The notes below the pieces were generated by a model, which was not told the origin of the DNA, searched no databases, and worked only from the letters and a program-made list of their open reading frames with translations. Shown piece after piece: positions 11,125-25,086 of a DNA stretch of 35,150 nt. How positions within the stretch are numbered: position 1 is the first letter of the stretch; every line of letters begins with the position of its first letter. The position numbers and the translations under genes were made by a program. Location of the stretch: NCBI GenBank assembly GCA_027858235.1, contig JAQIDC010000038.1:1-35150 (forward strand), read 5' to 3'. The stretch comes from Patescibacteria group bacterium (GTDB lineage: Bacteria > Patescibacteriota > Patescibacteriia > Patescibacteriales > BM507).

Positions 11125-12243
11125 TTATACTTCATCGACAATTGAATTTATTCTTTTTGATATTGTTTCATAGGAATATTTATCCACGGATAGTCTCCTG
11201 GCACTCTCAGACATCTCAGTCAAAAGACTATCATCATCTAGAAATATTTTAATTTTATCAGCTAAATCTTCCCTGTCTGATGGTTTAGTTAAAAACCCTT
11301 CTTTATCTGTAAAAACACTCCTAACTCCTGGTAAATTAGAGGCGATAATAGGAAGACCGCTTGCCATTGCTTCAAGTAGAACTATCCCAAATGCTTCACC
11401 CTTGTTTATTGATGGTAATACAAAAAAATCGGATTCCCTGTAAACGATTGGTAAATCCTCATGGGACACTGAACCCAAAAACTCAACTCTCGAAGATAGT
11501 TTTTTTTCTTCGCACTTTTTTATATATTCCTGTTTCAAATTTCCTTCTCCTACTACTTTTAATATCCAATCATTTCTTTTTCTGAGTAAAAACAAAGCAT
11601 CAATTAGAACATTAAGTCCTTTGAAATAATGAGCTTTGTCCAGACCACCTACAAATAATATTTCTTTTTTTTCTCTAACTCCCCTGTCTGTCCTTGTATG
11701 AAACTTTTTTGTATCAACAGGAAAATAAGTTTCACGAAAAATGCCTGGATTGTCAGTGTAGAAATTTTTTATTTGAGAATTTTGAATATAATCAAGACTA
11801 CCCGCCGTAATCAAATCAGCCTTTTTTAATAAACTCTTTTCAATCATTTTTGAGGGAAATGAAAGGAGCTTGAATAGTGGGGACAATCCTATAACATCCA
11901 TATGATAATGGAAAATTACTTTAGTTTTTCTATTGAACAATTTAAAAAACCAAATTATTTCTGCTCCACCAAAGAATGGATAATGCAAATATACTAAATC
12001 ATATTTTTTGAGTTTAGAAAAAAGCCTTGGGACAAAAGCTCCGTTACCAAGCTTAAGAATAGGTTTAATTCTAATTATCTTGGTTGAATTACTATCATCT
12101 TCTGAAATATCATTCGTGTACAGAGGGGCATACACATCAACCTGATGGCCACCCTCTCTCATCATTATAGAAAAATCTAGAGCACTTTTCCCAATCCCAC
12201 CCCCATAAGGAGGAAACACGCATACTACATGAGCAATTTTCAT
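11125..12243 (-). CDS. Family 4 glycosyltransferase (GT-B fold)
   Basis: A 372-aa GT4 enzyme. The N-terminus reads MKIAHVVCVFPPYGGGIGKS, with the GGGIG loop of the family. The C-terminal half has EILFVGGLDKAHYFKGLNVL, RVEFLGSVSHEDLP, and the catalytic E-x7-E in NKGEAFGIVLLEAMASGLP. It is similar in plan to the next gene (9950-11110) but not a recent duplicate. It starts 3 nt after the four-helix membrane protein. Likely adds one sugar to a surface glycan; donor and acceptor are unknown. Confidence 0.92.
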   Translation of the reverse strand: MKIAHVVCVFPPYGGGIGKSALDFSIMMREGGHQVDVYAPLYTNDISEDDSNSTKIIRIKPILKLGNGAFVPRLFSKLKKYDLVYLHYPFFGGAEIIWFFKLFNRKTKVIFHYHMDVIGLSPLFKLLSFPSKMIEKSLLKKADLITAGSLDYIQNSQIKNFYTDNPGIFRETYFPVDTKKFHTRTDRGVREKKEILFVGGLDKAHYFKGLNVLIDALFLLRKRNDWILKVVGEGNLKQEYIKKCEEKKLSSRVEFLGSVSHEDLPIVYRESDFFVLPSINKGEAFGIVLLEAMASGLPIIASNLPGVRSVFTDKEGFLTKPSDREDLADKIKIFLDDDSLLTEMSESARRLSVDKYSYETISKRINSIVDEV

Positions 12244-21563: not shown

Positions 21564-21923
21564 TTACCTCAATGCTACATAATCATCTCCTGGGTTGATA
21601 TAGTCAATCTTGTCAGACTTAACCATTCCAAGCTCTTCAACTCTAATAGCAAGACTGTTATATGATTCGATCAAAGTTAAATCAAGTTCTAGGCTATCTT
21701 TTTGTTTATTTAGATAATTTACTTCTTTTTGTAAATCATTAATGACAAAACCCTTTACAGACAAATCATTCTTCACAAGAATATAGGAGATGCTTGATCC
21801 CATGATCATTATTGAGACCAAAGAAATAAGTAATCCAAGATTCATAAAATTTCTTCTTTTTCTTGAAGTAGTACTTCTTCTATTATTATTATTCTTAAAT
21901 TTGTCTTTTTGATTTTTGTCCAT
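21564..21923 (-). CDS. ftsL: Cell division protein FtsL-like
   Basis: A 119-aa bitopic protein. The N-terminal cytoplasmic tail of about 27 residues is very basic and Asn-rich. One transmembrane helix (about 28-50) is followed by a coiled coil with regular hydrophobic spacing (VINDLQKEVNYLNKQKDSLE) and a short tail with VEELGMVKSDKIDYI, typical of FtsL/FtsB. Its position between rsmH and ftsI decides for FtsL. It would bind FtsB and FtsI in the divisome. Confidence 0.85.
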   Translation of the reverse strand: MDKNQKDKFKNNNNRRSTTSRKRRNFMNLGLLISLVSIMIMGSSISYILVKNDLSVKGFVINDLQKEVNYLNKQKDSLELDLTLIESYNSLAIRVEELGMVKSDKIDYINPGDDYVALR

Positions 21924-22020: not shown

Positions 22021-22983
22021 TTAAATCTTCTCCGCCACTCGCATTTTTGCACTTCGAGCTTTTGGGTTTCTTGCCAACTCCTCCTCAGAAGCCTGCAATA
22101 TTTTTTTAGTTATTATTTTTATACTAGCCTTATGACCACACTGGCAAACTGGAAAGCTAGGTGGGCAATGGCAATCAATACTTTCCTTCTTAAATAGGTT
22201 TTTTACTATTCTGTCTTCAAGACTGTGATATGAAATTACAGCTATGCGACCTCCCATTTTTAACAAACGTAAACTGTCTGGCAATGCTTTTTCAATGTTT
22301 TTTAACTCTTCGTTAGTTTCTATTCTTAATGCCTGAAATGTTTTTGTAGCACAGTGTATTTTTTGTCTCTTGTAAAAAGCGGGCACTGCTTCTTCTATTA
22401 TTTCTACTAAATCTTTCGTAGTATCAATGCTTCCTTTTTTTCGGGCATCAAATATTCCTCCTACTATCCTTTTATGAAACTTTTCTTCACCTAACTCTTT
22501 TATAATTATTTCCAATTCTTCCCTACTGTAATTATTTACCAAATCCCACGTTCTGTTGTTATTATCACCAAATGCCATATTTAATGGTGTTTCATCCTTA
22601 AAGGAGAATCCTCTATTAGTGTCCTCTAACTGCGCATTTGATAAACCGAGGTCAAAAACGATACCAGAGAAAAGACCTTCATCAAATTTTTCTTCATTAT
22701 TTTTTCTAAAATTATTCTCGGCAGATTCATAAATATTTTTAAAATTAGTGTTTTCTAAAATTATATTATTTAATTTTTCTTTTTTTAAAATTTCTGAAGC
22801 GATTTCTATTGACCAAGGGTCTAAATCAAAGGACATCAACTTTCCTTTTTCCCCTAATCTTTTTGCAATTGCTACTGTGTAACCAGCTCCTCCCAATGTT
22901 CCATCTATATAATATTCTCCTTCTTTGGGGTCAAGATATTCAATAACCTCATCAAGCATAACTGGGACATGTCTATATTCCAT
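22021..22983 (-). CDS. rsmH: 16S rRNA (cytosine(1402)-N4)-methyltransferase RsmH
   Basis: A 320-aa SAM-dependent enzyme that methylates C1402 in the ribosomal P site. It begins EYRHVPVMLDEVIEYLDPKE, as the family does. The SAM motif is YIDGTLGGAGYTVAIAKRLG, followed by FDLDPWSIE. GIVFDLGLSNAQLED, RGFSFKDETPLNM, ALRIETNEELKNIEKALP and GGRIAVISYHSLEDRIVKN are all RsmH signatures. A Cys-rich stretch near the C-terminus (CHCPPSFPVCQCG) and the ending NPKARSAKMRVAEKI are also typical. Second conserved gene of the mraZ operon. A 6-bp hairpin (22993-23008) stands 9 nt upstream of its ATG, and there is no Shine-Dalgarno sequence. Confidence 0.97.
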   Translation of the reverse strand: MEYRHVPVMLDEVIEYLDPKEGEYYIDGTLGGAGYTVAIAKRLGEKGKLMSFDLDPWSIEIASEILKKEKLNNIILENTNFKNIYESAENNFRKNNEEKFDEGLFSGIVFDLGLSNAQLEDTNRGFSFKDETPLNMAFGDNNNRTWDLVNNYSREELEIIIKELGEEKFHKRIVGGIFDARKKGSIDTTKDLVEIIEEAVPAFYKRQKIHCATKTFQALRIETNEELKNIEKALPDSLRLLKMGGRIAVISYHSLEDRIVKNLFKKESIDCHCPPSFPVCQCGHKASIKIITKKILQASEEELARNPKARSAKMRVAEKI

Positions 22984-23362: not shown

Positions 23363-23399
23363 CTCCTCTTCCCGCTTTCTTCGGGATAAACAAGAGGAG
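23363..23399. repeat. Structured dispersed repeat, copy C (inverted)
   Basis: Reverse-orientation copy of the copy A outer hairpin: CTCCTCTT ... AAGAGGAG enclosing CCCG and CGGG. It is preceded by another small GC hairpin CCGC-TTC-GCGG (about 23350-23360). Confidence 0.75.
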
Positions 23400-23474: not shown

Positions 23475-23906
23475 CTACACTCCCAAATCACCCAAAGCTT
23501 CAGCTATTTCACTACTATCCCCCTCTGAACTTTCTTTATATTTATCCCAATCACTTTCATTCCAAATTTCCAACCTATCATACAAACCAGCTACTATTGT
23601 TTTTTTATCTAGGTTTGCAAACTTTCTTAAATATTCTGGTAATGTAACACGTCCCTGTGAATCAAACTCTACATCCATAGCCCCAGCTAACATCATACGA
23701 CTAAATGCTCTTGCTTTAGATTGACTGATTGGTAAATTAGACAATTTTTTAGCAATATCACCCCATTCTTTCTTTGGATATAAAAAAAGACAGTTATCTA
23801 AACCCTTCGTAACAACTGCTCCTTCTTCAAGCATCGAACGGAACTTCGCAGGAACCGCTAACCTACCTTTTGCATCTAAATTATGATTGTATTCACCGAT
23901 GAACAT
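23475..23906 (-). CDS. mraZ: Transcriptional regulator MraZ
   Basis: A 143-aa ring-forming DNA-binding protein with two SpoVT/AbrB-like half-domains. Signature strands are NLDAKGRLAVPAKFRSML (near the N-terminus) and EFDSQGRVTLPEYLRKF (second half). MraZ represses or modulates its own mra/dcw operon by binding repeated boxes near the promoter; three such boxes are visible at 24517-24565. I place the start at the ATG at 23906. The codon before it is TTG (23909), and the resulting MFIGEYNHNLDAKGR start matches the family's usual MF... beginning. The first gene of the operon, followed by rsmH about 490 nt later. Confidence 0.96.
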   Translation of the reverse strand: MFIGEYNHNLDAKGRLAVPAKFRSMLEEGAVVTKGLDNCLFLYPKKEWGDIAKKLSNLPISQSKARAFSRMMLAGAMDVEFDSQGRVTLPEYLRKFANLDKKTIVAGLYDRLEIWNESDWDKYKESSEGDSSEIAEALGDLGV

Positions 23907-23912
23907 CAATTT

Positions 23913-23937
23913 GAATTATGAATTATGAATTATGAAT
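23913..23937. repeat. 7-mer tandem repeat next to the mraZ start
   Basis: GAATTAT repeated 3.6 times, ending 7 nt upstream of the mraZ ATG. On the operon strand this makes the ribosome-entry region simple AT-rich sequence that contains CATAAT at each unit. Confidence 0.85.
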
Positions 23938-23952
23938 CTCCTCTTTTGTCAT

Positions 23953-24059
23953 CTCGAGCGAAGTGCTAACGTAGTCGAGAGATCATAAATAAACTCTTTC
24001 AATAATTTTTGTCATTCTGAAGTGAGACCTCAAATATTATGGTTTAGCTCACTCCAGAA
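23953..24059. repeat. Two hairpin repeats in the mraZ leader
   Basis: The first unit (about 23953-23985) has CTCGA and TCGAG arms around an imperfect GC-rich interior with GAGCGAAGTGC. The second (24015-24059) pairs TTCTG-A-AGTGAG with CTCACT-C-CAGAA, 11 pairs and one mismatch. Both begin with GTCAT, like other palindromic repeats in this region. Confidence 0.65.
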
Positions 24060-24133
24060 CAACAGTTTTGTTACATGTTTTGTGTTACATGTTACATGAA
24101 TTGCACGACAAGCAAATTTGACCTTTTAAGGCC

Positions 24134-24212
24134 AAAAGGAGTTTGATATAGAATTTTAATATCAGACCCCTTCTTCACCTTAATTCTAGTCATTCCGGGC
24201 TTGACCCGGAAT
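24134..24212. repeat. Two further palindromic repeats in the mraZ leader
   Basis: 24134-24175: long hairpin, arms AAAAGGAGTTTGATAT and ATATCAGACCCCTTCT. 24192-24212: perfect ATTCCGGG-CTTGA-CCCGGAAT inside TCATTCC...GGAATCCAG. The latter closely resembles a widespread palindromic repeat of alphaproteobacterial and rickettsial genomes (from memory, not checked). Confidence 0.7.
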
Positions 24213-24321
24213 CCAGAAAAATCTAAAGAGAACTTCCCTTTTATTTTCTTTCTCCTCCTTAGATTAAAAGAAAATAAGATTTTGTTTTTGTTATATTTTG
24301 TTTTAATGATTATTAACTTGT

Positions 24322-24450
24322 CATTCTGCCTGTCCCGTCATTTGCGGGAGAACGAAACGCCAGTGCAGTGATAGAATCTAACATATTTTTGTCTTTTCTA
24401 AGATCCGAGAAGAAGTTTGACCAATGTTGAGTCCTGATCAAACCCCTTCT
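24322..24450. repeat. Repeat fragment and hairpin at the 5' end of the mraZ leader
   Basis: 24322-24372 holds a GC-rich stretch with TCCCG and CGGGA arms (CCGTCATTTGCGG). 24408-24450 is a hairpin with arms AGAAGAAGTTTGA and TCAAACCCCTTCT; in the minus-strand RNA two G-U pairs complete a 13-bp stem. It is related in sequence to the hairpin at 24134-24175 (shared TTTGA and ACCCCTTCTT). Confidence 0.6.
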
Positions 24451-24516
24451 TTGTCCTAAAAACGCACCCCCATGCGTAAAAAACATTTTAGAATGATGAA
24501 AGTGTTTCAAAATTCT

Positions 24517-24565
24517 CCACTTTCCCCCACTTTTCACCTATCTACTATCAGTATACACCACTTTT
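24517..24565 (-). promoter_or_regulatory. Three MraZ-type boxes (AAAGTGG)
   Basis: On the minus strand AAAGTGG occurs at 24564-24558 (inside the promoter spacer), 24533-24527 and 24523-24517. Start-to-start distances are 31 and 10 bp, whole helical turns, so the boxes face the same side. MraZ is known to bind short direct repeats of this type (AAAGTG[G/T] in mollicutes, TGGG-containing repeats in E. coli). Confidence 0.8.
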
Positions 24566-24578
24566 GGCCATTTGTCAA
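24550..24578 (-). promoter_or_regulatory. Promoter of the mra/dcw operon
   Basis: Minus-strand TTGACA (24578-24573), 17-nt spacer, TATACT (24555-24550). The start is expected near 24543, which makes a leader of about 637 nt before the mraZ ATG. One MraZ box lies within the spacer and two just downstream of the start. Confidence 0.85.
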
Positions 24579-25034: not shown

Positions 25035-25086
25035 GAGATAAATAAAATAGGTATAGAGTTAATTCTATACCTATTTTATTTATCTC
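25035..25086. repeat. Perfect 23-bp AT-rich inverted repeat
   Basis: The arms 25035-25057 and 25064-25086 are exact reverse complements around the 6-nt loop GTTAAT. No run of T directly follows on either strand, although AATTTTCTCTTAT is next on the plus strand. It lies 91 bp beyond the stop codon of the minus-strand gene at 25178. Confidence 0.85.

Follow-up and report, generated by a model that had tools for sequence, protein, structure and literature searches.

A conserved hairpin RNA, probably cis-regulatory, in the mraZ leader of an order of Patescibacteria

In regulons of the CsrA/CsrB type, mRNA leaders and a sponge RNA have hairpin motifs in common. In Mollicutes, the published operator of MraZ is (AAAGTGKN3)3 (PMC5282649; see also PMC8475190). 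In Rhodobacter, the small RNA UpsM derives from the 268-nt 5' UTR of the dcw operon, which contains a strong intrinsic terminator and is processed by RNase E; this extended 5' UTR is found in one family only, the Rhodobacteraceae, and has been proposed to be a riboswitch or a source of small RNA (PMC5089854). Our literature search on mraZ leader RNAs and on RNA motifs of Patescibacteria or Parcubacteria, conducted mostly outside subscription journals, returned UpsM as the only precedent. Ultrasmall Patescibacteria keep few transcription regulators, and the control of cell division in these organisms is an open question.

The window that we analyzed is a stretch of 35,150 nt from a Patescibacteria genome. 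The relatives of its mraZ place this genome in the order that includes Ca. Falkowbacteria, and the MraZ of one congener that we compared is 90% identical. The dcw cluster on the minus strand contains mraZ, mraW/rsmH, and genes for a 119-aa protein, a class B penicillin-binding protein, and a Mur ligase. A preliminary description of this region reported a promoter with three AAAGTGG boxes spaced by whole helical turns and separated from mraZ by about 637 nt of hairpin-rich DNA. We found this arrangement at 24578-24517 on the minus strand. The promoter (24578-24550) has 11 of 12 matches, the boxes are spaced by 31 nt (box 1 to 2) and 10 nt (box 2 to 3), and the predicted transcript start at about 24543 lies 637 nt from a genuine mraZ. 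Two of the boxes are in perfect register with the Mollicutes site; the remaining one is displaced upstream by three turns. The motif alone is not rare, with 9 occurrences in the window versus 5.7 expected. However, the combination of box array and promoter recurs 5' of mraZ in dozens of relatives, so the array is not due to chance. As in known MraZ operators, direct repeats of AAAGTG[T/G] with a 10-nt period overlap the mraZ promoter. An MraZ-type operator is thus well supported by conservation; the binding of MraZ itself, which the preliminary description took as clear autoregulation, is predicted. This part of the region is ordinary. Just downstream, the congener pairs AGUGG with CCACU where the window has a GAAAGUG/CACUUUC hairpin (Table 1). 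Upstream of the dcw region, at 25037-25084, there is a long and nearly perfect AT-rich inverted repeat.

Table 1. Features of the mraZ promoter, leader and first dcw genes, in the direction of transcription.
Feature	Position	Strand	Observation
Sigma-70-type promoter TTGACA-N17-TATACT of the mraZ/dcw operon	24550..24578	-	Top promoter-like site of the region; kept in relatives
MraZ box 1, AAAGTGG	24558..24564	-	Inside promoter spacer; same place in relatives
MraZ boxes 2 and 3, AAAGTGG	24533-24527, 24523-24517	-	10-nt period, around predicted transcript start
Small hairpin GAAAGUG/CACUUUC (RNA of last MraZ box with downstream CACTTTC)	24498..24524	-	Fold z -3.0
Element B, ACGCAU-GGGG-GUGCGU	24462..24477	-	Window variant GCATGGGGG; consensus in relatives GCAUGGGGAU
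D copy 1, UUAGGAC-AAAGAAGGGG...CUUCUUCU-GAUCUUAG	24398..24459	-	R1 58.2 bits; fold z -6.1
Repeat-like block between D copies	24285..24379	-	81% copy elsewhere in own genome
Dispersed palindromic repeat TTTTTCTGGATTCCGGGTCAAGCCCGGAATGAC (GGATTCCGGGTCAAGCCCGGAATGAC type)	24189..24221	-	Many own-genome copies; fold z -3.3 (24218-24189)
D copy 2	24126..24183	-	R1 58.1 bits; fold z -5.4
Element E, UUGC-UUGUCGU-GCAA	24101..24116	-	Consensus AUGCUUGUC; often apical loop in relatives
Dispersed ACATGTAACA-type repeat	24062..24098	-	Many own-genome copies
Long hairpin TTGTTCTGGAGTGAG..CTCACTTCAGAATGACAA	24008..24062	-	Fold z -4.2; ends resemble dispersed repeats
Dispersed palindromic repeat CTCGACT..CGAGATGAC	23942..23993	-	Own-genome copies; fold z -1.1, weak (23990-23945)
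7-mer tandem array (ATTCATA)n	23908..23937	-	Dispersed in genome
mraZ, first dcw gene	23478..23906	-	Pfam MraZ 9.7e-42
mraW/rsmH, second dcw gene	22021..22983	-	Pfam Methyltransf_5 7e-99

All five palindromes noted earlier in the leader exist, the last of them with a weak fold, and they are of two different kinds: copies of a conserved element and repeats dispersed in the genome. Two of the five belong to the first kind. They are copies of a covarying hairpin of about 60 nt, UUAAGGC-GAAGAAGGGG...CUYCUCCU-GCCUUAA, that we call D. In an alignment (A1) of 25 copies from 21 leaders, 88% of cells were paired in a two-helix hairpin and seven pairs showed compensatory change. There were 17 double-change cells versus 5.9 in shuffles (0/500), and at most 59% of cells were paired once the 3' partner was displaced. 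The alignment was seeded with AAGAAGGGG, so the invariance of that strand is partly a matter of selection; AAGAAGG was kept in the matches that the covariance model of D (R1) found after seeding. An A at column 12 is invariant even though it stands opposite a mismatch in 17 of the 25 sequences, so the conservation of D exceeds what pairing needs. Antisense scores with R1 were about 20-40 bits lower and D uses invariant G-U pairs, as expected of an RNA.

D is tied to mraZ. In searches of 60 genomes of the order, R1 had 24 matches at E<1e-7 after antisense echoes were left out, each of them on the mraZ strand and 5' of the gene, and weaker matches in four genomes (G017, G040, G046, G048) were likewise at mraZ. 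R1 matched 32 of 111 genomes of the order, and in the newly added genomes mraZ was confirmed downstream of the loci that were fetched; the link covers confident matches whose surroundings were examined. A class-wide draw of 381 genomes gave matches in genomes of the order itself and none outside it. More than half of the genomes of the order retain mraZ and have no D match. When promoter and boxes were located by one uniform rule, the distance from promoter to mraZ was 195-859 nt with D (median 439, n=29) versus 81-272 nt without D (median 101, n=45), a difference with p 7e-13. One leader without the D seed, with a distance of 425 nt, appeared by eye to contain variants of D and of A, a second hairpin described below. 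Three genomes of one family of the order (f3; G042, G053, G034) have A upstream of mraZ together with a variant D of the form GUAGAAGGGG..GUGGGUGAGUUUGG..CUUCUCUUGC, and share a GGAUAGGACCUAU-like hairpin.

Three further elements are conserved in these leaders. Hairpin A lies between the promoter and D in most relatives and has a fixed loop of 14-15 nt, CCAAGAYAAUNNRCG, on a freely covarying stem. In its alignment (A2), 94.6% of cells were paired, with 43 double-change cells versus 14.1 (0/500) and at most 39% pairing in slid controls. A had been seeded by its loop pattern plus at least four paired bases; with a narrower loop pattern and no stem filter, all matches listed had stems of at least 4 pairs. 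As in structured cis-regulatory leaders, both D and A have covarying helices, and D has a fixed position and strand upstream of one gene. We did not find A in the window's own leader, and its genus has lost this hairpin. A match to A in one genome outside the order (G191) was at mraZ; matches in five other genomes (G244, G269, G312, G272, G251), with no mraZ in the fetched stretch, look like chance. Element B occurred as exact GCATGGGGA in 13 of 31 leaders versus 0.03 expected after shuffling. The core of element E, UGCUUGUC, occurs in leaders both with and without D, and E is possibly older than D. In seven leaders without D, UGCUUGUC is in a hairpin loop about 35-55 nt before mraZ; these hairpins adjoin the operator, and in several the stem is partly MraZ-box RNA. 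The A loop (GAYAA) and E (UUGUC) could form a pseudoknot of five pairs; no covariation was seen by eye, and the idea was set aside.

A and B also occur away from mraZ. In several genomes the model of A (R2) matched a separate place downstream of a gene for a small single-TM protein (..KKKAMEQEFSWSGL.LSLSIAFF..), which is present in 29 of 60 genomes and had no Pfam match. This second locus contains, in most genomes, an A hairpin followed by a boxA-like CGCUCUUUNAAA, long hairpins, (A)GCAUGGGGA, and an intrinsic terminator. The A hairpin is present there in many copies. In the window's own genome the second locus is on contig C15 at about 21590-21810 on the minus strand, with GCATGGGGAT and a degenerate A; another R2 match on this contig, at 11932, looks like chance. 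D was not found at the second locus, and Rfam searches gave nothing convincing there. The presence of A and B at both loci suggests a shared trans factor. In CsrA/CsrB-type regulons, a short GG-rich hairpin element in a leader and in a stand-alone RNA would act likewise. However, a search for CsrA, which was positive in E. coli, B. subtilis and T. maritima, found the protein in none of the 41 genomes tested; the factor must therefore be other than CsrA. A tentative idea, which we hold to be possible and somewhat doubtful, is that the mraZ leader and the stand-alone, terminator-ended RNA with its boxA-like stretch form a two-locus regulon in a reduced bacterium without CsrA, in which an RNA-binding factor, perhaps titrated by the stand-alone RNA, would couple division to another cellular state.

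We conclude that the leader contains a conserved RNA that has not been described before and that is probably cis-regulatory for the dcw operon. The best reading is that it acts after initiation, alongside autoregulation by MraZ. Transcription would start at the promoter, where MraZ would occupy the AAAGTGG boxes and so regulate its own gene, and the transcript would then pass through the conserved structured RNA on its way to mraZ. In most relatives this RNA consists of A, B, one or two copies of the purine-rich D, and E, with A-rich linkers. The A loop, B, and the purine strand of D are conserved in sequence, which speaks for their recognition by a trans factor; a protein is the most likely candidate and a small molecule a less likely one. 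Binding of the factor would set how efficiently the operon mRNA is translated or how stable it is, as a second layer after repression by MraZ. Two mechanisms were considered and rejected. Sequestration of a Shine-Dalgarno sequence by D is unlikely since this group hardly uses such sequences: they precede 2 of 33 mraZ genes with D, a similar 8 of 76 without D by a lax rule, and 3 of the 32 genes in the window. For transcription attenuation, the sole terminator called on the minus strand after D is weak, where D2 and E overlap (24136-24117), and there was no convincing intrinsic terminator from promoter to mraZ. Apart from this weak call, neither a terminator nor a sequestered ribosome site of the kind used as a riboswitch expression platform overlaps the conserved domain. 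An alternative hairpin that pairs the D2 3' strand with sequence further downstream, UUUGGCCUU/AAGGUCAAA (UUUUGGC/GCCAAAA in the congener), occurs in this genus and is not general in relatives.

D might carry no signal and be a site for a double-strand-specific RNase or a 5' stabilizer that sets the half-life of the dcw mRNA. In compact relatives D is indeed a long, nearly perfect hairpin that stops 10-25 nt short of the start codon. This would leave the fixed A loop, GCAUGGGGAU, and the sharing with another locus unexplained, and we regard it as rather unlikely. Another view is that termination or processing before mraZ releases a trans-acting small RNA from the leader. UpsM is a precedent at exactly this position (PMC5089854), and A and B do recur in an RNA locus that ends in an intrinsic terminator. 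However, D is missing from that locus, neither the window nor the compact leaders have the strong terminator before mraZ of an UpsM-type leader, and in compact relatives the sequence runs on from D to the ATG without interruption. This makes a small-RNA source quite unlikely.

The preliminary description offered a choice between repeats that invaded a short leader and a structured leader with a role, and we found evidence for both. When we mapped repeats by BLAST of the leader against its own genome, the palindromes at 24192 and 23953, the ACATGTAACA-type repeat, and the 7-mer array, a tandem repeat of the ATTCATA type that had also been noted, proved to be dispersed. For these the invasion holds. 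The palindromes at 24408 and 24134, the two D copies, had no further copy in the genome and bear out the structured leader. The fifth (24015) had no clear sequence-level copy elsewhere in the genome, and we count it with neither kind. The distance from promoter to mraZ is 672 nt here versus 346 nt in the congener, 326 nt shorter, and the extra length is in two blocks: 214 nt here versus 50 nt between the D copies and 219 nt versus 47 nt from D2 to mraZ. The extra 330 nt or so is mostly genome-dispersed repeats. Since the congener leader is already about 350 nt long, the repeats invaded a long, structured leader and not a short one. The genus of the window has lost A, duplicated D, and gained repeats between the D copies and between E and mraZ, leading to the 637-nt leader. 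A further dispersed palindromic repeat, CCACCCCTCTTCCCGCTTTCTTCGGGATAAACAAGAGGGG, occurs in the window at 24839-24800, at 21987-21948 in the gap downstream of mraW, and reversed at 23365-23396. It is very unlikely that all of the hairpins are functionless repeats piled up in a permissive leader. The own-genome copies and the shorter congener leader fit this and it stands for the other hairpins, but it is refuted for D, which is single-copy, shows covariation, and in about 30 genomes is found at mraZ and nowhere else.

Two other explanations concern the nature of the conserved parts. A short regulatory ORF beginning at B (AUG GGG AUG/AUU/AUC/GUG), the translation of which would control the leader, fits the ATG GGG ATN, or M-G-(M/I/V), seen by eye in most B-bearing leaders. 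But by eye the frame relative to D varies among relatives and the peptides are alike barely past the first codons; in the window the frame ends after 5 codons, and B also occurs directly before the terminator of the second locus. With such inconsistent frames we rejected this highly improbable reading. That the conserved parts are protein-bound DNA inverted repeats, as palindromes near promoters often are operators and MraZ-type boxes lie just upstream, is extremely unlikely: G-U pairs are invariant and frequent, model scores are strand-asymmetric, loops vary, and the parts lie as far as several hundred nt downstream of the start.

A conserved RNA before the dcw operon makes a post-transcriptional layer of control directly testable. 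D offers a covariance model, a defined taxonomic range, and natural losses and duplications, and the modules common to the second RNA locus are a handle for finding the binding factor. The leader had no match in Rfam 15 at gathering score, and in permissive searches with it and seven mraZ loci of relatives the conserved elements came nowhere near that score; they would be an RNA family absent from Rfam. Some of the window's hairpins (24218-24189, 23993-23942) resemble REP/MITE-like dispersed palindromic intergenic repeats. D differs from these in being single-locus and conserved across genera, and B and E are also conserved leader motifs. The nearest described case is the UpsM leader (PMC5089854), likewise a long, structured, and taxonomically restricted 5' UTR from the dcw promoter to mraZ. 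Unlike it, the leader described here belongs to an unrelated phylum, has no terminator and no Rfam match, and contains elements A, B, D and E. The promoter resembles the MraZ-autoregulated dcw promoter of Mollicutes (PMC5282649, PMC8475190) in having AAAGTGG boxes in 10-nt steps at the mraZ promoter, with the regulator encoded by the first gene of the operon. By contrast with that operator, one of the boxes here lies between the -35 and -10 elements and is 31 nt away from its neighbor, and the promoter is followed by a conserved RNA leader.
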